Assembly: GCA_027625915.1 (NCBI GenBank) | Contig: JANTQA010000023.1 | Coordinates: forward strand, 10,168,001-10,232,000 | Length of the DNA: 64,000 nucleotides | From: Anaeramoeba flamelloides | Taxonomy: Eukaryota > Metamonada > Anaeramoebidae | Reading direction: 5' to 3' | Shown: positions 3,359 through 53,929 of the stretch, one piece after another | Layout: each line of letters begins with the position of its first letter | Position numbering within the stretch: position 1 is the first letter of the stretch | The notes under the pieces: generated by a model | What the model saw: only the letters and a program-made list of their open reading frames with translations | Databases searched by the model: none | What the model was told of the DNA's origin: nothing | Position numbers and translations under genes: made by a program

Positions 3359-6300
3359 ATGGGAAATATAGCTTCTTTTAACAAAACTGATGAACAATTT
3401 AAGAATTTGATCTACCATTTGCCACCAAAAGATTGGATCCCAAAGAAACACTCTATTTTGAATACCAAGTATATTATTCAACAGAAACTGGGGAGCGGAT
3501 CTTTTGGTAATGTTCACCTATGTGTCAAAAAATCAACAGGAGAAACATATGCAATAAAATTCGTACATTTAACTTTTTTGTTTTCTTTTGAAGAAATCGT
3601 TTTTTTTTTTTTCGGAATAGGAACTCAAAATCCCTAAACAAAGAAAGTAACACGAAAAAACAAAATACAAACAAAGTTCAAGTGAACAATATTCTCTTTT
3701 CAAAAGAACCAAGTTTTTTTTTTCTCATTAGAATTCGCAATTTCTTTTTTGAAAATCAAAAAGTCTAATGAGAAAAAGTAGAAACGAATTCTTATTGAGA
3801 AAAACTTAAAAACATTTTTGATCAATCAATTTCTTGAAGAAAATCAAGAAAACGAAAGGGAAAAAAAAAAAAAAATAGAATTTTTTATTTATCCAATAAT
3901 CTTTTAACTTTAGAAACTTGTAAAAAAAAATAATTCATTTCAACATAATAAACCAATTAAAGGAAACAAAAATACAAGACAGGCATTTAGAATATGAAAA
4001 AAAAGTCTACGATATATTGGGAGGTTTACCAGGAGTTCCACAGGTGTACGAATTTGGAGAGACCAACTATCGGCAATTTCTCATTATGGATTATTTGGGA
4101 AAAAATTTAAATCAATTGTTGTATTATTGTGGAAACAAATTCAGCTTAAAGACTGTCTTGATGATTGCCGATCAGTTGATAAGCAGACTTGAACACGTCC
4201 ATTCAAAGTCGTTTATCTATCGAGATGTAAAACCTGACAACTTTGTGATTGGTCGAGGAAAAAATAAAGATCAGATATATATTATTGACTTTGGTTTATC
4301 CAAGTTGTACAGAGACTTTTGGACACACAAACCAAATCAGTATAAGAATAAGCAGACCCTTGTTGGAACTTCCAGATATTGCTCAACAAATACCCACTTA
4401 GGCATTGAGCAATCAAGAAGAGATGATCTCGAAAGCTTAACATACATGCTGATTTACCTTTTAAAAGGGCGGTTGCCATGGCAAGATTTGGAAATGTCAC
4501 TCAAAACCCCAGTGAACGATCAAATTTGCAATTTAAAAATTGTCACAAAGGATACTGTTTTGTGTGAAGGGATATCAGGTTTGACACTCATTCCTAAAAA
4601 TTCAAAATCTTCTTTTTATTACTATTTTCTGTTTTTTTATTCTTTCAACTCTCAACAAAAACACATTGGGTATTATATCGTTCCTAGAACTCAAAGTCAC
4701 CATAGCAACCATAGTATCAGTACAAAAAAAAGAATTATTCAGAGAAAGACTCAAAATAATAACCATTTCTTTTTTCTTTTCAAGAAAATATTTTTTCATT
4801 CGATTACACAAGTTAGCTTTTAGTAAGATTCTAATTAATTCATTGTCTTTGAGCAAAGATAGTTTATTCTTGGTAAGTGTAGAAAAAATCAATCAACTAA
4901 CATTTTTTTTTTTTGGTATTAGATAGGGTATAGTTGTATAAATGAGCATAACAAACCAGTAAATCTGTGAAATTTTAGTAAAGAAAAAAGCAGAATTAAA
5001 AAAGCGAGTTTTTTCAATTACTGGTTTTTTTTTATTTTCCACCAGATATTGAACTTTCATGATATTTTTAAAAACACTGTCGCTATTTCAGTTCTTGTGT
5101 GAAAATATTCAAATATGACTTTATACACACTTGTTATTTGATTAACCATAAATTTTTTATGAAAGGTTATTTTAAATTAAAAAATATATAAATTTTCTTA
5201 AGGTACTAGTACCTATTATTTTTTTTGGACAATTTCTAAATAATGATTCCTTATCTAGAAATAAGTTTAATATGAAAACAAACAGGATTTTTCAAATCTA
5301 GGTAATGAGCTAAAAATTTTCCCAATCTCTTTTAAATTGAAGTTAAAAAAATTTAATAGAGAATAGTTCCTTAAATAGCAAAAACAATTATGTTATATTC
5401 TAAATTTCATAATAAATGGCCCTATTTTTTTAATTTTTTTCCACCTTTTTTTTATTTTATTTTTGCAAAAAAAAATATTTCTAGTGTATATTGAACAGAA
5501 TATTAATATAATAATTTTTTTATTAAAATAGATAACATAATTTCTAAAAATAATTATTTACTAAATTTGATTTTCAATAGGCCAATGATTTTGAAATATA
5601 GTTTATTTGTAAAAAAAAATACCGAACATGAAAAAAATCCCGGACTAGCATATTTACAAGTGAATAATAGGAAAAATGTTGTCTAATTGCAAATATTTTC
5701 AATCAAATCCTTTTAATAAATAACCAAATTTTTTATAATATCAGTAATTCCCTAACATAAAGTTCATTAAAGCAGGGGCGTCTATGTAACATTCTTGTAA
5801 TTGTTGTATAATAGTAAGTAGATCAACTTTTTTTGAAAAACAATAGATGTTTTATAGAGGTTTACAAGGAATTTAATAAATTTTATTTTTTATTCTTGTT
5901 TTTCTGATTGATTGAATAATATTTTGAACAAGTGTAATTTAATTAATCATCATTCTAATAAGAGGGTGAGTTTTAAACTATTTCCACAAAAAAACGAGTA
6001 AATTCATTTTTAAATGTATTTATTAAACCAAATCTTCAAAAAAGTATTTTAATATACAAAAGAATTAACTACCATTTATCAATTCTTGATAATAATTCAA
6101 TTTTATTTCGTAGTATTGTATTACATAATAAAAAGATATTAAAATATCTAATTTCGATTTTATCCAATATTTTTTAGGAGTGAAAATTGCTGTTTATTAT
6201 TTTCTTTTTGATCCAAAAAATCATTTCCTTAACTTTGTAAAATCAAAAAATTTTTATATAGAATTGAAAACATATAACTGTATATGATTGTTTAGAAAAT

Positions 6301-11841: not shown

Positions 11842-14800
11842 TTAATCCAGAAACTTATCGAAAGTAAAAAGAGAATCTGCCAATTTTTTAGGATACAAAT
11901 GTATTTCTGAACGGAAATTAAATAAAAGTTTTAAAGGTATTTTATTCGTAAATTTGGATATTGTTCCGTTTTGGTTCTGCAAAATAACTGATATCGATGA
12001 TTTCTTATTTAAATTTAATTGTGTTTTCACCTTATCAATCAAATCATTCAAATTATTTGTTGTATTCAAATCATTTATTTCAAATCTAATACAATTTTTG
12101 TTATTTGAATTTTTATGATAAATTAACTTTAATTTGGAAAAATTTTTATTTGAGGATCTTGCAGAAAAAATTTTTGAATTGTTTTCTTTAATCAAGGCAT
12201 TTTGAGAATATAATTCGGCGTAATTTTTCAATTTTTGAATTATCAAATCATTATTATTTAATAATTGAAAGGTATTTTTCCCCTGTGAATTTTTTAAATA
12301 CAGATTTGCGCCATTTTTCACTAAATACATTGCCAACTTATATTTTTTTTTCAAAATGGCATAATGCAAAGGGGTTTCGTCTTTTGAATCTCTACCATTT
12401 AAATGTATTTCAAAGTCTACTAACAATCGTGTTAGTCTTACATTATGGTTTAAAATGGTTTGATGTACACAGGTTCTACCATTGGTACCATTTTTTGAAT
12501 TTAATTTCGATAATTTATCATATTTGGCAAATAAAGACACAGCTTTATATGAAACGTCAGCATCTTGGATTGAGCAGGCATTAAAAATAGGGAAACAATC
12601 ATTATTGTCCTTAACATCTGTATTAATATTTGACTTTAACAACAATTCAATTAATTCAAGATTGCCATTCCGTAAAGAAATATGCAATGCTGTTTCACCA
12701 GAACTATTTTGTACATCTAAATCAATATTTTGGTTAATTAAAAATCTTGTAATAGCAAGATTTGAATTACTTGTAGAGATATGTATAGGGTATAAATTAT
12801 CTTTAGCAGGAATGCTACAGAGCTTTTTTAATTTGGATGGGAATTTTTCTTGAAGTAATTCAATTATTGGAAATTGGTTATTCTTAATAGCATAATGGAA
12901 AGGATTCATTGATTCAGAATCCAGTTCATTCAGATATTTTGTAAAATTTAATAAAAATAATGAGATTTTTTCAAATTTATTAATATATTTGTTTTTATTG
13001 ATATTTTGATTTTCATTTTGATTTTCATTTTTATTTTCATTTTGATTTTGATTTTGATTTTCATTTTCATTTTCATTTTCATTTTCATTTTTATTTTTAT
13101 TTTTATTTTCATTTTGATTACCGCCATTATCGGTATCATTTTGATCATTCTCATTATTATTAATTATCATATTTTGATTTTTTTTTAAAATAAATTGAAT
13201 ATTATTCTTCCTATTCTTAACTTTTTTCTGATTTTTTTCATTTAAAAACCAATTTAATAAATCAAAGTTACCTGTAGAACAAATTAGATGAAAAAAATTT
13301 TGTAGGTTTTTTGAAGTAGTATTTAAATTTGAACCAGACTTTATTAATTTTTTAATAATTTTAATATTTTGGTGTTGTTGAAAAGATAATAATAAAGGTG
13401 TCATTTCATTACTATTTTTTAATTCCAAATTAATTTTATTTTCATTATTGTTATTTAACAATAACTTGATTATTTCATAATTATTTAATTTGATTGCTAA
13501 ATGCAACGCTGTATCGTTACTTTTGGGTAAAGTAATGTTTAAATCGACTTTACATTCAATAAAATATTTGATTATTTCAATTTTGTTTTCTTGGATGGCA
13601 AAAATTAAAGCAGTCATCCCATCCAATTGATTATGGATATGATTTAGATTTAATTTACAATTTTTCAAAGTTTTCAAAGTTTCCAATTGATTTATTTTCA
13701 CTGTTAATAATAATGCACTTAATTTGGTTTTTCTACAAATTTCAATATATAAATGTGGTGCGTTTTCGCATATTAATTTAATAATATCTTGATCAACACT
13801 ATTATTTATTGAAGAATAAAGAATATTTTCTCCATTTTCATTTTTCAACGAACAAATATTGACATTGTATTGAAGTAGGAATTTGATATATTCGTAATCG
13901 TTCATAAAGATTGGTTGGAATATATTTGTTAAATTTAAGAATTGAAAGGTTTCCTTGCATTGCGAGATTTCGTAATCAGCTAACAGTTGCCTTAAAAAGG
14001 ATTCCAACCAAATAAAATGATCTTCGTTTTTATTTTTATGTGAATTGTTCCTTTTTTCAACACCAGTTGAATTTTTTTTCCATCTATTAGATTTTATAGA
14101 ATTAGTCAATTCTTCATTCAGAGTGAGTGTCTTTTCTAATTTGGGGAAGATTATTCTTGGGTAAATATTTTGTAAATTATTTCTCAACTTTATAAAATCG
14201 CCAATCGTTTTTTTAACAGTCCAAATGGAACTAAAACTTCGAACATCAAAGCAAAATAAGTTTAAATTGTTGTTGGTCAAATCATGTGGAATAACGGTAT
14301 ATGTCAAAGTCTTATTTGGTTGGTTCCCATTCACGTGGATCAGTTTTTGTGCCAATGCTCTTGATTGCATGATTGAAATTAATCTTTTCCAATTTTTTTG
14401 CTCTAAATTCAATTTTAATAAAACTAATAATGATTGGTTACCAAATTTTAATTTCATAGAATATCTTTGTTCAACAATTTCATTCTCATTTTTATCGCTG
14501 TTGCTTTTTTCATTTTTTTGTCCATTTTCAATTTCATTTTCATCCTTTTTTTGAATCAAATTCTGTTTCCCACGTTTTTTAGACCTTGTTAAAGGAGTTG
14601 TATTAATACTCGCACTTATCATAGTAATAGGAATGCTCTTATCGAAATTTCTTTTTTTCATTTTTTCTTCAAGCTTGTGTTTTTTTTTTTTGTTAAATTT
14701 GAAATAATGTAAAAAATTTGGCGTTAAAATTAAATATCCCAAAGTAGGCTGCACAAATTTTTTTCCGATAATTTGTACAATACCTGTTTTTAATGGCTTT

Positions 14801-14916
14801 GCTAAAAATTTAACACCAAATGGTGATGTAATTTCTTTCCCACTTACCATTTCAAATTCATTTTTCGTATCAAACCAATAAACAGACAAATCTTGTTTAA
14901 TTAAATCTAAAACACC
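11842..14916 (-). CDS. PH-like / PX / ankyrin-repeat protein (5' exon not found)
   Basis: One exon of about 1,024 codons. The open frame has no upstream ATG, and an acceptor (TATAAAAG before GGTGTT) fits at 14917, so a short first exon lies further right. Approximate residues counted from 14916: 1-180 PH-like fold split by a Lys/Glu/Asn insert; 200-330 PX domain (WTVKKTIGDFIKLRNNL, FPKLEKTL, FIWLESFLRQLL); 340-905 ankyrin repeats (DTALHLAIKLNNYEIIKLLL, GETALHISLRNGNLELIELL, DETPLHYAILKKKYKLAMYL), broken by an Asn/Glu/Lys run near 600-640; 920-1015 a possible ubiquitin-like or DCX-like fold. PX and PH domains bind phosphoinositides, so a membrane scaffold or trafficking role is likely. No ArfGAP, GEF or kinase catalytic domain is visible. 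Domain calls for PX and ankyrin are firm; PH and the C-terminal fold are tentative. Confidence 0.85.
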   Translation of the reverse strand, partial: GVLDLIKQDLSVYWFDTKNEFEMVSGKEITSPFGVKFLAKPLKTGIVQIIGKKFVQPTLGYLILTPNFLHYFKFNKKKKHKLEEKMKKRNFDKSIPITMISASINTTPLTRSKKRGKQNLIQKKDENEIENGQKNEKSNSDKNENEIVEQRYSMKLKFGNQSLLVLLKLNLEQKNWKRLISIMQSRALAQKLIHVNGNQPNKTLTYTVIPHDLTNNNLNLFCFDVRSFSSIWTVKKTIGDFIKLRNNLQNIYPRIIFPKLEKTLTLNEELTNSIKSNRWKKNSTGVEKRNNSHKNKNEDHFIWLESFLRQLLADYEISQCKETFQFLNLTNIFQPIFMNDYEYIKFLLQYNVNICSLKNENGENILYSSINNSVDQDIIKLICENAPHLYIEICRKTKLSALLLTVKINQLETLKTLKNCKLNLNHIHNQLDGMTALIFAIQENKIEIIKYFIECKVDLNITLPKSNDTALHLAIKLNNYEIIKLLLNNNNENKINLELKNSNEMTPLLLSFQQHQNIKIIKKLIKSGSNLNTTSKNLQNFFHLICSTGNFDLLNWFLNEKNQKKVKNRKNNIQFILKKNQNMIINNNENDQNDTDNGGNQNENKNKNKNENENENENENQNQNQNENKNENQNENQNINKNKYINKFEKISLFLLNFTKYLNELDSESMNPFHYAIKNNQFPIIELLQEKFPSKLKKLCSIPAKDNLYPIHISTSNSNLAITRFLINQNIDLDVQNSSGETALHISLRNGNLELIELLLKSNINTDVKDNNDCFPIFNACSIQDADVSYKAVSLFAKYDKLSKLNSKNGTNGRTCVHQTILNHNVRLTRLLVDFEIHLNGRDSKDETPLHYAILKKKYKLAMYLVKNGANLYLKNSQGKNTFQLLNNNDLIIQKLKNYAELYSQNALIKENNSKIFSARSSNKNFSKLKLIYHKNSNNKNCIRFEINDLNTTNNLNDLIDKVKTQLNLNKKSSISVILQNQNGTISKFTNKIPLKLLFNFRSEIHLYPKKLADSLFTFDKFLD

Positions 14917-14922
14917 CTTTTA

Positions 14923-44736: not shown

Positions 44737-47700
44737 TTATTTTCTAGAAGCCTTTTTTAATGAATTCATAAAATGATCAAAATCCTTTAAATAACCGTTA
44801 TAATTCTGTGAATCACTTTTCAAAATCGGTAAAATTCTGATGGCGCCTAATTGATTTAGCCTATCATCTAAATTGATAGCTGCGTGGTTGAATTTGGTGT
44901 AATTTGAATTACCTACACCATATATGGTATATCTTAAATTGGATAAATTGATTTGTAAGGATTTTATTTTTTTCCAAAAGAATTGGGCGTTATCGGGGAA
45001 TGATCCTTCCCAATATGTTGACACAACAAAGATTACGATTTCTTCAGATTTCAGGTCTTCTAATTCGATTTCATCTAAAGCAAATATTCTGGCCTTGAGT
45101 TTAAAACTATGCCATTGCTCATAAATTTTATAGGAAATTTCACGAGCTATTCCAGTTTGACTGCCATATAAAATCAAGATGGAATTTTTGGAATGTAAAT
45201 TTTTGTCAAAATTTTTAATTTTCTCTTTTTTCAAAATTTGATTTTTTGTATTGGAATTTGTGTTTAGTGATCTATTAGCATTAAGAGTACCACTTTTAAA
45301 ATTTTCATTTTTTTTTTTTATTGGTTGGTAATGCTCAATGCGGTTTTTTAGCTGAATATTATGGGATACGGTTTCCATATACGTATCTTCAAATAATGAA
45401 TAATCCAAGGGTTGTAATCGTGGATTTAACGTCTGGAAAATGGTTTCTCTTGTGGGGATGATCTTGTCTTTGGATTTCGGATGCCCTCCTCCCCCAATAC
45501 AAGAAAATGGGCAAGCTCGTATTTCAATATAATGATACGAGGGGCCTAAACTTTCAAATAGTTTACTAAAATACTTTACGGAATTGCCACCATCTACAAC
45601 AATTATTTTGATATCTTTGCCATTTATCTGTACCTTCCCCAATTGAATTTGCTTTTGTGATTTTAATTTTTGAAAATCGACCTTGTCAATTTTTTTTCTT
45701 TCATCGCTTAATGTAAAGATTGATTTGTTTTTCTTTTTAATTCGATTTGTTTTACTATAATTAGTATTAGGAATACCATTTTTATTATTATCATTAGTTT
45801 TGTCGCTATTTGTTAATACATGGTTTGTTTTGTTATTAATATTAGTTTTTATTCTTAAAGTGTTTTTTTTAGTTTTGAGTATTGAATTATTTTTTTTTCC
45901 CCTTTCCTTTTCCTTTTCCTTTTCCTTTTCCTTTTCCTTTTCATCATCTTTACCATTTTCATCACCATTCCCCTTCTCTTTCTCCTTTCCCCCTTCAATT
46001 TCCTCCCCCGTTTCCCTTTTGGGTTCTTTTTCCTTCCCCATCTTATTTTCCCTTTCTACCATATTTTCCTTTTCTGTCTTATTCTCCTTTCCAAGTCCAG
46101 TTCCTGTGTCGTTTTCTTTTATATTATCACTATCGGATTCGTCATCATTAACTTGAGTTTCATTTAAATCCAATTGAAAATAAAATGGAGATAAATCCGT
46201 TTTTTCAACATATTCCCAATCATTAATAATATACTTCTTCCTTTGAGTTCTTTTTAAAGATTTTTTTTTCTTCCTTCTAGAAAACATTTTATTTTCTTTA
46301 TTTTTAATTTTTGTAGCTTTTAATTTTTTCCATTCCAAATACTCAGCCAAGGAATCAATTCTTTTTTTCCTTGTAATATTTTGATTTTTTAATTCCGATT
46401 TTTTTTGATCTAACTGATTTAAACAATCAACAACTAAAGTAGCAAACCCGCCACGTTGGATAACAAAATCGGAATTATTTTGAGGTTCATAATCCGGGAA
46501 AATTGTAGTAAATTTTTTTTTAGCAATTTCTTCTAGATTCTTAAATTTATTTTTATTTTGCTTAATTATGTTACCTAATTCACGAATTGTCAGGCACATA
46601 TCAATATTATTAAATCCCTTTATATTTTTATTTTGTGGGGTCTTGATTTCATTTTTGACGGAAACACAACCAGTTAAAATTATTGTGAAAACATTATTGG
46701 GATTTATTTTTAATCTCTCCGCATAATAAGATTTTATTAATAAACCAAATATTTGTGATGGCGTTTTATGTAAAGATAAATAAGGTATTAAATTGGGAAA
46801 CATTTTTTTGACCATTTTAATTAAAGATGGGCAAACAGAACTTATTAAAGGCAAGTAACCATTATGATTGAGCTTATTCTTGGGCTTTGCCCTTATCTTT
46901 TTTTTCTTCTTGACCCTTAGCTTTGTTTTCTTCTTCTTGTTCTTCTTCTTCTTACTTTCATGATCATTATAATTATTTGGATTATTATTATCATTGTTGT
47001 TATTGTCATTATAGTCGTCGTCACTTTCAGCGTCATAATCATTGTGATCAACATCGTCATCATCGTCGTCGTCATTATTATTAATTTCATAATTATTGTA
47101 ATTATTCTTATGATCCCCCATCTGTTGAATTTTTGCTTGTAATAATTTAGCTTCCTGTAATATTAATACGTTAATTGCAAAATCTAAACTGAAAACATTT
47201 TCAAAGCCCAATTTATTTAAAACCCCAACAATTTTCTTTTTGCTAATAACTTGTGGCTCAATTTCTAACATTTCTGCAAAGCTAACATAAACCTCGGGCG
47301 AAATGCCTATGACAACATGGACATTAGGATCTAATAGCTTTTTTTTTAACAAATTAAGATTAACGAATTTTTCAGTTAAAGCGTTTGTTGGGCAAAATGA
47401 AGTACATTGCCCACAATCAATACAGTTGGATTTCATCAATGATAAATTGTTTGTAGTGCTCAATGAGCAATTAAATTTTTTGATATTTTTTAATTTCATT
47501 TGGAAGACATCAACCCCCATTAATTCTGTACACACCTGCACACACCTACCACAATCGATACATTTTGATAAATCCAAATTAATTGCATTTGTCGACTCAA
47601 CTAGAGAATTTGTTTTATTCAATTCCTCTATACAAAATTTAAATAATTCATTGTTTTGGCCGCCTAGATCATAATTTCCAAAAAAATTTGTCTCATTATT

Positions 47701-50700
47701 GCTATTGGCATTTAGCTGGCGATCTAATAATTTTTTTTTAATAATCCTCAAACTCTTTTGCACTTTTTTTTTCACATTCATTGTATTGGTCCACACCTCA
47801 ATGTTTTCTCTGACCTGGTAACTGCATGAATTTACAATTTCCTTTTCTCCATATTGATTATTAATTTCAACAGCGCACAACCCACATATGCCTATTGGCG
47901 ATAGTCTTGGGTGATGGCATAATGTGGGTATCGTAATACCAAATTCTTTACATGCTTCAAATAATGTTAACTCTGGCGAAACCCTCTTAGGCTCACCGTT
48001 TACATAAATTAAAAACATTGACTTTATACCTTTTAAAAATAAATTGGAATTATATTCCTTGATATATGACATTTCTTTTAAAATGCTTTTTGATCTTTGC
48101 TTTCTACTCGCTGGCCATCGGTTAATCGTGCCATCTTTTGATCCTGAGAATAGCCGGCCATTTTGGTCAAATTTGACAGAATATATTGTATTCTTATGCC
48201 CTCGGAAAATTGCCTTTGTGATTCTTTTTTTGATATCCCAAATCCTAATTTCATGATCGTTGGCATAAGAATAAATTCTTGATTGATCTGTGCTTAGAAT
48301 CATCCCTCGTATTTGGCCTCGATGCCCATTTAAAAAATTTGCACCTTTTTTCTTATTTTTTAAATTCCACATACCAATTCTCCCATCCCAAGACGAGGAA
48401 AATAGCCTGTTCCCCTCTATTAATAATCGTGAGATTGCAAATTTATGACCCTTAAATGTATGAACACATTTTGCAGTTCTTGGATCCCATGCTTTAATTT
48501 TGGAGTCATGTGATCCTGAGTAAATTAACCTATTGGTTGTATCCACTTTGAAACACAATACCCACCCGTTATGCCCTTTAAATGTGTGTATAACCTGCCC
48601 ACTTTCAACATCCCAAAGCTTTAATGTCTTGTCAACACTACTTGTTATCAAGTGCTCGTTTTGCAAATATAGCATCGTAATCATATCATTATGCTCTTCA
48701 TAGTTTTGAACAACACTTCCATCTTAATTGGTGATATATATTTATTTTTTAAAGTTTGGTTTAAGAATGATTATTAGAAGAGATTATTTAGAATTTTGTA
48801 AAAATATGATCTTTAAAAATATTCGGAATTATCAACAAGAATAGAATTTTCATAACAAACCGAGAAATAAGCCCTTAATTTATCTTTTCAAATAATGTAG
48901 ATTATCATCAATTTGTGTTTTTTTATTGGATATTTAAAATATTTCTGATAATATATTAAAACCTCAAGATAATGGACAAATTTGCGATAATCAATAAAAA
49001 GTTAAAAAGTTGTATTCAATTGAGAAAATTTTTTTAGTTTTAATTAATGCTTAAAAAATGATTTAAAAAGTCAATTAACATAAAAAATATTGTAAAAATT
49101 ATTGTTGTATTATTATTTAGATTTTTTATAGATAATCAGTATAAAATTATATCTTAAATTTTAAACTTGAGAAAGATATTATCAGGAATAATTATTAAAT
49201 TCATGGAAAATATTTTTTTTATTCTACATAAAATCAGAAATTAGCGATATTTGTCCAAATTCTTGATAATCTTATTTATTCAGAAAAAAATTATTGTCAC
49301 TAATTTCCCTATTATTTAAAAATACATTTATTAATTTTGATTAATAAATATGATTTTTGATGATAAAGGCAATGAAGAATGTAACCAATATCAATTTGAA
49401 AGGTCGGTAGAGTTAAGTTTTATATAGTCACCCCTTTTCTTGGTTTGTTTACACTTATCCCAAAAATTACAAAAATCATGTAGATTGGTGTAACTTTAAC
49501 TGAAAATCACATTACCTTCTTAGGATATTAATTAAACAATCCACTCCCACCATAAAAATAATTCTCTGCCACAGTGGGATACAGAGGTGAGACACAGCCC
49601 TGCCACACAATAAAAGTGTGCTAACTTTGATAAAAAATGAATCTAGTACAGTTTGATACCAATTGATTGTGGCACTTTGTACATTTTTTTTATTATTAAT
49701 AATCTTTATGTGTGTGATAAATTTTTATCAAGTGCGCTAAGAAGTGTGATACAGAAGCGATAGCATATCACTTTTGATTTAATTTTATCGCTAAAATTTT
49801 TATTTGGGTTAACTGTTTGACCCTTAATTCTTTAGGATATCTAAGAATAATCTGTCTTAAAAAGTAAGAATTGGATTTTTTTCAATTTAAATACCAATTT
49901 TTTTCAAAAAGGTATTTTGATAAATATTAAAACAATTTAGTTGTTCAAATCTTTTTCTTTAATAGGGTTAATATAAAAAATATTAAAAAAAAAATTACAG
50001 ATCTAGTAAAAAATGACTTTTTCAAAATATTTTATTTAACCTGAAGAAACAGTATCATTGATGTGAAAAAATAATTGTATACTACCAATATCTAAAAATT
50101 CACACCACTGGAGAGAATTCAATTTAGTTGTTTCATGTGGATTTTTAAAATTGACACAATACCAAAGCTATATTACTCAAAGTAACTCTATTAATAATTA
50201 TACTTGTCAAAAAATAGCAATTTCACAATTTGTCACACCCTTGTTATTGTTCATTTAGAATTAAAAAAAAATACCATTTTCTCTCAAAGTTCAATAAAAA
50301 TCTCAATTAATCTCAAGATTATCGCTATCATGTCGAATTAACTATGTAAAAGATCCTTGGTTTTTTCAACTAATACAGTTAAAATCAAATTACTACTGAT
50401 AAATTCAAATATATTTAATAAAAATTTTAGTTCAATTTCCCATTTTATAATTTCTTATCTCAACTTTTAAAACAACACAAGAGAAAGAAATTTTTGAATC
50501 ACAACCAATTTTATAAAGAATTTAACATTTAAAAGAATAAAATGCTTTACAAGGCATGTGTAAAAAAAATCGAAAAAATGGAAAATGAAGTGAAATTTTT
50601 CAAATATTTATTTGAATTTATCAGTATATAGTCAGTCCCGCTTTTAAGGCACAAAATTTCAATGAAATAAAAAGCACAAAAAAATCTCAAATTAAGGTAC

Positions 50701-53320
50701 AAAATTCAAATTCTAGTAAAATAAATTGTAAAAAATAAAATTAAAAATGTGTCCTTAATTTGAGATTTTTTTTGTTCCGTAATTTTTGTTCAAAGTTGTG
50801 CCTTAAAAGTGGAGCCAACTGTAACTAAAATTGTATTTCAAAGTTCAATAAGGAAGCTTAATTAATTTTCTTGAAATATCATTTCTAATTGATTTTGAAA
50901 ATATCTTTGAGTTTTTTTTTCAAATCAAGTCGGGTTAGTAGAATATTTTGGAGCCTGAAATATAAAATTATGCTTTATTAATTGGACAATTACAGTATTT
51001 TTAAACTTACTTTTTTTGAAAGTTCTCTTTGATAAATCATTTAGAACTGAGAACTTTGTTGGCTTGGTAGAATTATTCTTATTCGTGTTTTCTTTAAGGG
51101 ACTAGTAACTCTTATTTATTTTTTTTCCCAAAGGTAATAGAGTAATTATTTACATAAGGATACAATTAAACCCAATAAGAAACTTCGTTTGTCAACTTTA
51201 GAGAAATGAATCATCATTTTTAAAAGATTTCATTTTTCCAATGGAATTGTCAGTCAAAAGATCGAGATCCTTTTTTTTTTTGGGTTTTTGGATCAAATTA
51301 GAAAAATAAAAATTTGCAAAAAAATTTTATTTTTGAAGAAATATCACTTTTAGTAATTTCTGAGAGTCGTTATGAGCAAGTAACGTTGTGTCTTTAATAT
51401 TATTTTAAAAATACATGAAAAATAAATCAAATATTGTATCCTTGAAGATCTAAAAAATTTGAACATTTATTTTATTCACAAATATTCATGAAATGTCTTG
51501 AAATTTAAAAGACTTGCCAATTTACTTTTTCAAATATCAAGAGTACAAACAAGGAACTGTTTGTATTAAAATCAGGTTATTTGATAATATCTATTATTTT
51601 TTTTATTATTAGATATATGCATTTGAATTATTTTATTTGTTGCAAAATCTTGAAAAAATTGAGAAATAAATGTAAAACCTATTTGATACATTTAATCATT
51701 GGGTTGTTAATGACTTACTGAAATAATTAAGATTTGGTTTATAATTATTAATTATAAATAATCAAATTAAAAAGTATTTCTTTAGATTATAAGTTGAATT
51801 TTCCAGGTTTTAAAAAAGTATTTCGGGAGAATTTTTAATTCGATTGTTTGGTTCTTTTTCTCATATTTTTTCATTTAATCCCTAGAAAAAATAGATTTGG
51901 TCTGTTCTTTGAATCAAAAAATTATATTTTTTACAAGTTTAAAATAAATATTGTATTTTTTTTGAGATTAAGTAGATTTTTTAAACTTGGTTATTTTAGA
52001 ACTTAGTGGTTTCATTTTTAAAGTTTATTTTTGTACACTTCCTTTACAGGCAATAAGATTTCAATCTTCTTTCAATGTAAAAATAATTTTTTTTAAATAA
52101 TTTGGAAATATGTTGAATTTTGAACTTTTCAAAAATGGGAAAAATGGATCATTCTTTTTAAAAACAATTAATTCATTTCTGAAAATAGTATTAAAAGTAA
52201 GCCATGTCTTGTAGTTATCAGATTTTTACTTTATTATTCAATTTCAAGATTCGGGTAAAATTTTTTTTAATTTGTTAGTAAATTTACTTGAAGAACTTTT
52301 TTAGTCTACCAGTCCCTTAAATGAATATTTGTTTGATTACTTATGACGATAAAAAAGATAACTGAAAAAAAAAACATTTTGAAACAATTTGTAAAATCTT
52401 TTTTTATGTCAATTTTTTTAACCTTTCCAAAATGAAAAAACGAAAAAGAAAGAAAACAACAAATTTCCAAACACAAACTGTTTGAAAAGGACTGTGAAAA
52501 TATCATTTACTCTTTCAACAGGAATTCTTCTTTAAAATTTTATTTGGGGGTTTTTGATAAAAACAATACAACAATTAAAGCCAATAAATTCGTTCCAAAT
52601 AATACATTAACAATAAACTGTTGTAAAATATTTTCTGATGTTTGATGTGATAAAAAATGATCTGTGTCTTTTAAAAATATGGTTTGATAGATTGGAGTAA
52701 TTATGATTTTGGTGTTAATTTTTCGTTTTTTATTTCTTTTGAGAAACAAGATTTCAGTTCTGTGAAGAAAAAACAAATTCTATACCCCACAAATTAAAAA
52801 GAAAAAAGGAAAAAAAAAAAAAAGAAAAAAGAGAAAATAGACAACAAAAAAAAGAAAAAAGAAAACAGAAAAGAGAAAAGAGAAAAGAGAAAAGAGAAAA
52901 GAAAATCAAACCGAGTGTGTTCCATAATTTAATTGTATTATCAGACGAACCGGAAAAGAGTTTTCCTGTTTCGTTGATGAAAAAGGTTGTAATTTTCCCT
53001 GAATGTCCTTCAAAAGTTGTTAATAAGTTCTCATTTTTGATATCATAGGATCGAAGAAAGCCACCTGTGTCCGAAGCATAAAGAACACCATTGGCAACTT
53101 TGAGCCCACTCAACGGTGCGCTATGATTTAAGTATGTTTTGATAAGATGTGCACTATTAATATCATAGACCTTAATCTCTTGGTTTTGTAAACCGCAGTA
53201 AAGATATGTTTCATCCATGGACAGACAGTTAACACTTGGGCCTCCATACTCTCCATATATTACAAGTGGGTCACAATACGGGATACTTCCGCGTGTGTTT
53301 TTTAAGACCTCATAATTCAT
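44737..53320 (-). CDS. WD40 / ferredoxin / [FeFe]-hydrogenase-like / flavodoxin fusion protein
   Basis: Exon 1 (53320-52912) and exon 2 (48722-44737) join in phase 1 inside a WD40 repeat (KLWNTL/DGSVVQNY) over a 4,189-bp intron; product 1,464 residues. Residues 1-360: about eight WD40 repeats. 372-450: 2Fe-2S ferredoxin fold, Cys 405, 416, 419, 436. 524-534 and 570-580: two [4Fe-4S] motifs (KCIDCGRCVQVC, NCIDCGQCTSFCP). About 600 on: H-cluster domain with L1 SSVCPS (Cys767), L2 TGCVSVKNE (Cys822) and L3 RACPFSCIGGGGHP (Cys1207, Cys1211), broken by Asp/Asn, Lys and Lys-Glu inserts. 1315-1464: flavodoxin of the CPR type (YGSQTG, STYWEGSFPDNA, YGVGNSNY). All four cluster cysteines are kept, but the proton-transfer Cys before Cys767 is Val, the L2 Lys is Val, and the His-ligated [4Fe-4S] motif is absent. 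No targeting peptide is seen. Likely a redox relay, perhaps an H2 sensor. Confidence 0.93.
50629..50823. mobile_element. 200-bp TA MITE, TTAAGGCAC family, copy 2
   Basis: Left end TATAGTCAGTCCCGCTTTTA AGGCAC; right end GTGCCTTAAAAGTGGAGCCAACTGTA. Second copy of the element at 34827-35026. Confidence 0.7.
51093..52320. mobile_element. Probable TTAA-bounded element with GGGACTAG ends (copy F)
   Basis: Starts TTAAGGGACTAGTAACTC and ends TAGTCTACCAGTCCCTTAA; TIRs are short. Its left 130 bp resemble 63263-63420 (TGTCAACTTTAGAGAAATG). At 1,228 bp it is the longest TTAA candidate, but no transposase frame is open. Confidence 0.5.
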
Positions 53321-53929
53321 TAAGATATTTGTTAATACAAATACTTGATTGATTTTTGAAAGAATGAAAAAAATAGTCGATATTTTTAAATGAATAATAT
53401 TGGGTTTGTGAGCTTGTGTGATTGTATTTTTTATTGGGTCCTTCTATGGTGTTTTCCGATTTTCTATATCTTTTTTGATCTTACTGTAGGAGATAGTGAG
53501 CGGAAAATTCGAAAAGTCAATGATTTTTTTTTTTTTCCAGTAAAAAGTGAGTTCTTTGAAATCCAAAACAACTTTTTGAAAATTCTATGAATAAAAATAG
53601 AAATCCTTTATTCTAAAATTGAAAGTGTCAAAAACTGTTTTGGTTTATCAGGAGAGTTCAACAAATGGCATTTTATGTTGAATTTTTGAAATAGACTTGT
53701 CAAATTTGTTAGTTTGACATTTATCTTGATTATTATTATCAAAATTTCAAAAACAATCTCTGTTATTATAGAACAGTAACATAGTTTCGTGGTTTTTCTT
53801 ATGATGAGATTATAAAAATAGTTTATAAAGTCACTTTTTGGGTTAAAAAAAACTCGAAGTGAATTTTTTCGTTTTAATTTTAAGTGTCAAAAATGACTAA
53901 TTAAAAAACTTAAACCCTTTCAATTTCAA

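Follow-up and report, generated by a model that had tools for sequence, protein, structure and literature searches.

The partner domains joined to a hydrogenase decide the destination of its electrons in the cell. In eukaryotes the hydrogenase fold has also been reused without hydrogen chemistry, as in Nar1/IOP1/NARF. The closest described architecture is that of the 'long' NuoG-HydA-CysJ hydrogenases, which two reports document for Trichomonas, Stygiella, Pygsuia, Pelomyxa, Trimastix and Paratrimastix, and which unite an N-terminal ferredoxin part, an H domain and, at the C terminus, a flavodoxin of CysJ type in a single chain (PMC10579272, PMC10703272). Five of the Pelomyxa proteins are there assigned to the cytosol (PMC10579272).

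A gene with these same parts lies on the minus strand of the window, the 64,000-nucleotide stretch of DNA that was analysed, in the AT-rich, 254-Mb genome of Anaeramoeba flamelloides. It is laid out as follows:

52912..53320, minus strand: exon 1, 409 nt; WD40 blades 1-3, preceded by Met and about 20 residues; donor CTCG/GTTTGA
48723..52911, minus strand: intron, 4,189 nt, phase 1, GT-AG
44737..48722, minus strand: exon 2, 3,986 nt; remaining WD40 blades, Fer2, two [4Fe-4S] motifs, H domain, flavodoxin, stop
48112..48722, minus strand: exon-2 WD40 part (Pfam), ending in INRWP
47782..48012, minus strand: Fer2_4 [2Fe-2S] ferredoxin domain (Pfam 1.3e-11), with a four-Cys motif (CHHPRLSPIGICGLC...C)
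47368..47586, minus strand: two [4Fe-4S] motifs, CIDCGRCVQVC and CIDCGQCTSFC
45487..47319, minus strand: [FeFe]-hydrogenase H domain; PF02906 in two stretches, Foldseek matches to HydA1 and CpI
44773..45174, minus strand: Flavodoxin_1 (FMN) domain (Pfam 7.5e-29 on the C-terminal piece)

The encoded protein of 1,464 residues carries a NuoG-type Fer2 N-terminus, an H domain and a C-terminal CysJ-type flavodoxin in one chain like the long forms, but differs from them by an eight-bladed WD40 propeller ahead of the ferredoxin. This architecture is well supported. The order given in the initial annotation (about eight WD40 repeats and Fer2, then two [4Fe-4S] motifs, an H domain and a flavodoxin) holds, with Pfam E-values of 1e-10 for WD40 on exon 1 and, on the long exon, 1.3e-31 for WD40, 1.3e-11 for Fer2_4, 8.1e-44 for Fe_hyd_lg_C and 2.3e-27 for Flavodoxin_1. 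PF00400 exceeds its cut-off in both exons, and eight blades, delimited by eye, stand in register. The flavodoxin had been called CPR-type; a flavodoxin is indeed present, but it represents the FMN part only, the match to the cysJ model being confined to positions 38-204 of 597, so that the NAD(P)H-binding half of CysJ is missing from it. C-terminal fusions of this kind in anaerobic protists, to which the annotation had also pointed, do have published relatives (PMC10579272, PMC10703272). In NCBIfam and in the PDB, the H part has its best relatives, by sequence as well as by fold, in group A6 / TIGR02512 group A (CpI, T. kivui HydA1). The fold is retained according to Foldseek (HydA1, CpI), but long low-complexity inserts interrupt the domain and split the TIGR02512 match, which reaches 232.6 bits, under the cut-off of 405.95; the canonical relative C57 scores 448.3. 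The NuoG-part motif HxxxCxxCx5C was not found in any of the 11 long forms checked. The term 'WD40' is absent from the main text of PMC10579272 and PMC10703272, and no printed WD40-hydrogenase fusion was found in the literature searched, a set without Stairs et al. 2021 on Anaeramoeba.

The exon layout is exact to the base: the exon coordinates, the 3,986-nt length of exon 2 and the 1,464-residue product claimed earlier were all reproduced from open frames and splice sites. Exon 1 (53320-52912) lies within an open frame at 52754-53443 and exon 2 (48722-44737) within a stop-to-stop frame of 1,328 aa at 44737-48723, both on the minus strand. The splice sites read ...AAC ACA CTC G/GTTTGA ... TTAAG/AT GGA AGT, and the codon joined across them restores the WD40 register (KLWNTLDGSVVQNY). 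Among frames of at least 80 aa, the only ones touching the intron enter from the exon-1 end.

The fusion belongs to a family of 22 in the A. flamelloides genome, which the initial annotation had not recognised. At hydrogenase loci we find 22 WD40-ferredoxin fusions, the window's included, each adjoining an H-domain match; 15 have an intact H-cluster pocket (type C) and seven, the window gene among them, an altered one (type D). Family membership is well supported. A quick H-domain tree of 71 rows (the 22 fusions, 40 bacterial sequences, CpI and eight short forms), which left out two Nar1-like rows (C76, C33) and included no known protein of the sensory hydrogenase groups C and D, places the 22 together with an SH-aLRT of 100, apart from the bacterial, CpI and short forms. 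The seven type D genes form one divergent clade, and in a tree of WD40 parts with a single WD40-BAR outgroup the seven type D and four type C parts are sister groups. Most simply, all 22 genes derive from one WD40-hydrogenase fusion that later split into the two types. The genome has two more places with split PF02906 matches (C43:1.742 Mb and C48:18.92 Mb). Orthologues of A. flamelloides and A. ignava have a mean identity of 37.3% (PMC11550330).

The same loci bear on whether the WD40 part and the hydrogenase could be separate genes united by an assembly or gene-model error. Exon 1 is joined over 4.2 kb by prediction only, and in type C genes WD40-Fer2 and the H domain fall on different exons, the latter further downstream, which makes their join likewise inferred. 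However, WD40 and Fer2 share one open frame at 22 loci (the C72 alignment extends beyond its frame), a single frame runs from the exon-2 WD40 part to the flavodoxin in four of the seven type D genes (window, C64, C26, C37), and the intron, with lengths of about 2.1-5.4 kb, keeps its position and codon phase in all seven, each of which also has a counterpart of exon 1. Because 22 loci match through WD40 and Fer2, their join is neither chance nor assembly error; an artefact is hardly credible, and the earlier claim of a true fusion stands. A chance join of WD40 and hydrogenase was rejected on the 22 loci and the intron position common to all type D genes. In the canonical C72, separate frames abut, as judged by eye, at the place corresponding to the type D intron.

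What separates the two types is the surrounding of the H-cluster. Numbered by CpI positions, the diagnostic sites of the window gene are:

47293..47295, minus strand: Glu at CpI position 232; E232 in 7/7 type D, 0/15 type C and 0/80 bacterial sequences
46822..46842, minus strand: L1 motif SSVCPSL; Val in place of C299, with C300 retained
46648..46674, minus strand: L2 motif TGCVSVKNE; M353T, P354G, K358V, with C355 kept
45478..45525, minus strand: L3 motif EIRACPFSCIGGGGHP; M497R, with C499 and C503 kept

Catalytic enzymes have the forms TSCCPxW (L1), MPCxxKxxE (L2) and ExMACxxGC (L3), which the window motifs SSVCPSL, TGCVSVKNE and EIRACPFSC match only in part. The ligand cysteines C300, C355, C499 and C503 are kept in all seven type D and all 15 type C proteins, and type D also retains E279 and S319 throughout. 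Against this constant frame, A230S, S232E, M353T and M497R occur in 7/7 type D proteins, and K358, P354, Q325 and E282 are lost in every one, K358 giving way to V, I or A. We take K358 to be the foremost residue hydrogen-bonding the diiron site; a literature search pairing it with CpI returned nothing. C299, the proton-transfer residue, is lost in six of the seven and retained in C37. The residues altered in type D stay intact in all 15 type C proteins, save M353, which is Val in three. Thus the identification as an [FeFe]-hydrogenase holds for the H domain and its ligand cysteines, but the label of a catalytic enzyme becomes doubtful for a copy within a clade whose diiron pocket is altered. 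Type D evolves fast in general, with 43 of 110 type C-invariant columns changed in all seven, and the enrichment of pocket positions among the changed columns is not significant (8/13 versus 35/93, p = 0.13).

A scan of bacterial and archaeal genomes, with a query lacking the L3 motif, gave 198 confirmed relatives. Among the best 80 of these, which were kept, E232 occurs in 0/80 and R497 in 0 of 77 scored, K358 is present in 79 of 79 scored, and Thr353 and Ser230 appear in three and six of the 80. Of these 80, 59 carry Ala at position 232, as do the eight short forms, so the loss of Ser232 alone means little. Bacterial column 300 was not used, its Ser in 30/80 rows being taken as a register slip. 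The lateral gift of a pre-altered bacterial H domain was rejected, given the zero counts for E232 and R497 in the best 80 of 198. A scan of viral contigs found no relative.

Are the type D genes functionless copies in decay? In three of the seven (C24b, C70, C13) the reading frame is broken between L2 and L3, each time inside a homopolymer or short repeat, and type D dN/dS values mostly exceed the 0.02-0.055 of five canonical pairs. Nevertheless, they remain at 0.04-0.28 in the comparisons made (seven of 21 pairs for three segments and three pairs for the fourth, one value being undefined), which indicates purifying selection. Past the breaks the values are 0.07 and 0.09, and the window gene's exon-2 WD40 part gives 0.054 against its nearest paralogue. 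Since the new residues E232, T353 and R497 are moreover invariant in all seven, decay seems very improbable.

The main rival to a non-catalytic role is that type D proteins are slowed working hydrogen enzymes or H2 sensors of the HydS type, whose altered pocket would still hold a full H-cluster and whose propeller would relay the signal. In sensory HydS (groups C and D), C299, M353 and M497 are replaced as well, M353 by a small or hydroxyl residue, with the ligand cysteines kept and the full H-cluster still inserted (PMC10055695, PMC8163306). Loss of these three residues therefore need not abolish hydrogen chemistry. Type D shares this pattern, apart from C299 in C37, and keeps the ligand cysteines, E279 and S319; matches to the maturases HydE, HydF and HydG are present in the genome, those to HydF under the curated cut-off. 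On the other hand, HydS is described as conserving those residues that form hydrogen bonds to the diiron site, but type D lacks K358 above all and has gained E232 and R497. The small-subunit belt (Fe_hyd_SSU), which C57 matches at 1.4e-17, was not found in the window gene. Where HydS carries a PAS domain or a C-terminal FeS site, type D has a WD40 propeller and a flavodoxin, and its H domains group with the canonical type C genes, in a tree without any known HydS protein. This rival appears rather unlikely.

A less likely reading makes the type D proteins Nar1-type Fe-S carriers, whose H fold would hold transferable clusters only and whose propeller would replace Cia1. The hydrogenase-derived Nar1 has been proposed as a cluster carrier, and it binds Cia1, its WD40 propeller partner (PMC12991071). 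Nar1 and type D are both hydrogenase folds in eukaryotes; yet separate Nar1-like genes (C76 and C33, named from sequence by eye) have other pocket residues, retaining K358 and M353, and type D keeps the ferredoxin and flavodoxin domains. Cia1/CIAO1 is absent among 60 of the 518 solved-structure matches to exon 2. We consider a Nar1-type role improbable.

There remains the reading we prefer, at about even chances: docked type C hydrogenases, with type D carrying on the same propeller what would be a derived redox relay or sensor. No obvious presequence precedes blade 1 in the seven type D N-termini, inspected by eye, as had been noted for the window gene. Type C members are probably WD40-docked long hydrogenases outside the organelle. 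Through its propeller, the redox module would be docked outside the hydrogenosome, on a membrane or a partner, where type C members would make or use H2, wired through FMN and the Fe-S chain. In type D the diiron subsite would be absent or held differently, which would preclude H2 turnover at speed; in a suggested geometry, the invariant E232 and R497 would pair across the vacated site. With cubane ligands and electron wiring retained, type D could act as an FMN-to-FeS relay or as a sensor of redox or H2 state, sharing docking sites with type C members and perhaps competing for them. C299 in C37 and the three copies with frame breaks speak against the relay.

More tentatively, type D may be a new hydrogenase-derived class, in which a fixed E232/T353/R497 pocket replaces the diiron catalyst while the cubane ligands and the ferredoxin and flavodoxin wiring are kept: a propeller-docked relay or sensor beside 15 catalytic sisters, perhaps at the membrane contact between hydrogenosome and symbiont. 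Type D also differs from the long NuoG-HydA-CysJ forms by its rebuilt diiron pocket.

Chemists have mutated C299, M353, M497 and E282 singly. Type D lost these and K358 together (C299 being kept in C37), yet selection persists, which makes the seven copies a natural experiment on the role of the protein around the H-cluster. The host is probably an oxygen-avoiding amoeba, and Anaeramoeba keeps H2-using symbionts beside its hydrogenosomes. With a propeller-docked family in the same cell, the site of H2 production and its sensor would become directly testable.

The genome that holds the window gene comprises 76 contigs and 254,072,379 bases; within the window (C24:10168001-10232000) the GC content runs from 17 to 32% per kb. 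The initial annotation had proposed a 1,464-residue protein encoded by two exons around a long intron; the same coordinates and lengths were recovered here, and joining donor to acceptor regains the WD40 register.

44737-48723, minus strand: exon-2 frame, stop to stop, 1,328 aa
52754-53443, minus strand: exon-1 frame, open, upstream of the exon-2 frame
53320-52912, minus strand: exon 1, 409 nt, donor CTCG|GTTTGA
between 52912 and exon 2, minus strand: intron, 4,189 nt, acceptor TTAAG|ATGG
ending at 44737, minus strand: exon 2, 3,986 nt

Pfam places WD40 repeats in each exon; its matches in exon 2 also include Fer2_4, Fe_hyd_lg_C and Flavodoxin_1. Eight WD40 blades were counted by eye, and the flavodoxin corresponds to the FMN part of CysJ only. 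The window also holds a 1,025-aa ankyrin-repeat frame with a PX domain (11845-14919, minus strand) and a protein kinase domain (3924-4820, plus strand; PF00069, 2.7e-20).

Genome-wide, PF02906 matches 48 stretches; 22 fetched stretches, representing 14 places, were read. A search with a canonical WD40+Fer2 frame (E <= 1e-20) matched WD40 through ferredoxin at 22 loci, each adjoining a PF02906 H-domain match, and the window's own WD40+Fer2 recovered the identical set. The match is stop-free in 21 of them; in C72 the alignment extends beyond the frame end. Fifteen loci are canonical (C), with an intact H-cluster pocket, and seven divergent (D): the window locus on C24, C24b (C24:15.62 Mb), C64, C26, C37, C70 and C13. 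Four C loci were followed from WD40 to flavodoxin (C57, C72, C33, C48:15.63 Mb), their parts being spread over neighbouring exons; the other eleven were covered for the H-flavodoxin stretch only. Genome searches found no WD40 or flavodoxin match near eleven further, short hydrogenase loci (frames of 474-514 aa), of which eight were aligned and two sequences inspected. By eye, loci on C76 and C33 look Nar1-like, and PF02906 gives split matches at two more places, C43:1.742 Mb and C48:18.92 Mb. Away from the hydrogenase loci, three frames of 821-839 aa (C61:6822252, C13:15856221 and C34:2259873) match flavodoxin strongly and are perhaps other flavodoxin fusions.

The exon-1/exon-2 intron recurs in each of the seven D genes with the same codon phase, and in C72 separate frames abut at the corresponding place (...TLISWNL / DGSILQ; by eye). 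Frames break in three D copies, within a poly-A-rich run (C70, L022; C13, L023) or a GGAGAA repeat (C24b, L020), which may reflect sequencing error, real indels or slippage; the codons 3' of the breaks remain under selection. By NG86, with dS saturated in distant pairs, seven D pairs gave dN/dS of 0.05-0.16 for WD40, 0.04-0.25 for Fer2+Fer4 (one undefined) and 0.12-0.28 for the L1-L2 part, which contains low-complexity codons; three gave 0.07-0.09 for L3+flavodoxin. Since D values span 0.04-0.28 and five canonical pairs 0.02-0.055, D is under constraint, but on the whole weaker than in C.

How did the two groups arise? A quick H-domain tree was built from 71 rows: the seven D and 15 C genes, eight short forms, CpI and half (40) of the 80 bacterial loci. 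With nine pocket columns excluded and SH-aLRT support without bootstrap, it gave 100 for the D clade, whose stem is long and composition odd, and 100 for C and D together (22 rows). The short forms (L001-L008) cluster with eight Thermotogota rows (95), separate from the long forms; the tree suggests two hydrogenase ancestries in this protist. In a WD40 tree (7 D, 4 C, C41 as outgroup), D (100/99) is sister to C (82/79), with the warning that long branches meet. The simplest reading of these sequences would be a single WD40-hydrogenase fusion predating the C/D split. The next-nearest propellers, C41 (L029) and five further loci (C41, C51, C48, C70, C1), are six genes matching in WD40 only. In the one that was read, C41 (L029 481-2892), a BAR domain (PF16746, 8.6e-12) follows the WD40 part, with what looks by eye like an SH3 stretch behind it. 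This WD40-BAR pairing hints at a membrane-binding protein as a possible source of the hydrogenase propeller.

The pocket, placed on CpI numbering by alignment, sets D apart. All seven keep C300, C355, C499, C503, P231, P324, E279, S319 and F417, as well as Cys 190/193/196/200, and all carry A230S, S232E, M353T and M497R, together with K358 to V/I/A, P354 to G/N/A, Q325 to S/I/F and E282 to L/Y/V. Position 299, where cysteine is the proton donor adjoining the diiron site, reads V, V, A, Y, Y, Y, with C retained in C37. The altered residues are retained in 15/15 C, except M353 (V in three), and in the eight short forms, except Ala at 232. Among the best 80 of 198 bacterial and archaeal relatives, E232 occurs in 0/80 (Ala in 59, commonest; Ser in 18), R497 in 0/77 scored, Thr353 in 3/80 and Ser230 in 6/80, and K358 is retained in 79/79 scored. 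A caution on how much to read into this: of 110 columns invariant in C, 43 are altered in all D, and the columns assigned to the pocket, in part on general background, are not significantly enriched (8/13 vs 35/93, p = 0.13). A Fe_hyd_SSU belt lies 3' of L3 in C57 (1.4e-17); none was found after L3 in the window gene, the D member scanned.

Supplied with 67 bacterial rows, AlphaFold modelled window residues 236-1328 at a mean pLDDT of 63.4 and pTM of 0.64; H-core blocks were mostly at 80-97 and inserts below 50. Foldseek returned T. kivui HydA1 (8e-32) and, among the matches listed, CpI entries at TMt 0.73-0.81. Judged by residue identity, E232 and R497 may form a pair. The search behind Fer2 for the NuoG-type HxxxCxxCx5C motif found it in none of 11 long forms (seven D and four C; in C72, where the frame stops early, the following frame was inspected by eye), so electrons would go directly from the [2Fe-2S] centre to the [4Fe-4S] ones.

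Beyond the observed architecture, family, intron, selection and pocket residues, the propeller would dock a redox unit outside the organelle; no presequence was seen by eye. C members would catalyse H2, and D members would probably lack fast turnover, acting as a docked FMN/FeS relay or a redox/H2-state sensor. The chief alternative is that D is a slow enzyme resembling HydS. D matches sensory HydS in replacing C299, M353 and M497, but additionally loses K358, a step beyond HydS, in which residues hydrogen-bonding the [2Fe] cofactor are said to be conserved (PMC10055695). CpI retains <1% activity when C299 is changed to A or S, or E279 to A or Q (PMC6226526), and Ser/Thr in place of M353 is a well-conserved trait of the M2e (group D) subclass (PMC8163306).

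HydE matches above cut-off at two loci, HydF at two under it (237 bits against 325.55) and HydG at five, one above cut-off with exons summed. HydG at five loci and ribosomal protein L14 at 16 agree with reports of duplicated genes in A. flamelloides, for which PMC11550330 describes >1,100 genes for ribosomal proteins as well as symbionts adjoining the hydrogenosomes.

Long hydrogenases with CysJ are already known (PMC10579272 and PMC10703272), in papers whose main text lacks 'WD40', and no report of a WD40-[FeFe]-hydrogenase fusion was found in the available sections of PMC12991071, PMC7285305, PMC9161772, PMC8887013 and PMC8924675. The D clade may prove more than a variant of the known long hydrogenases.
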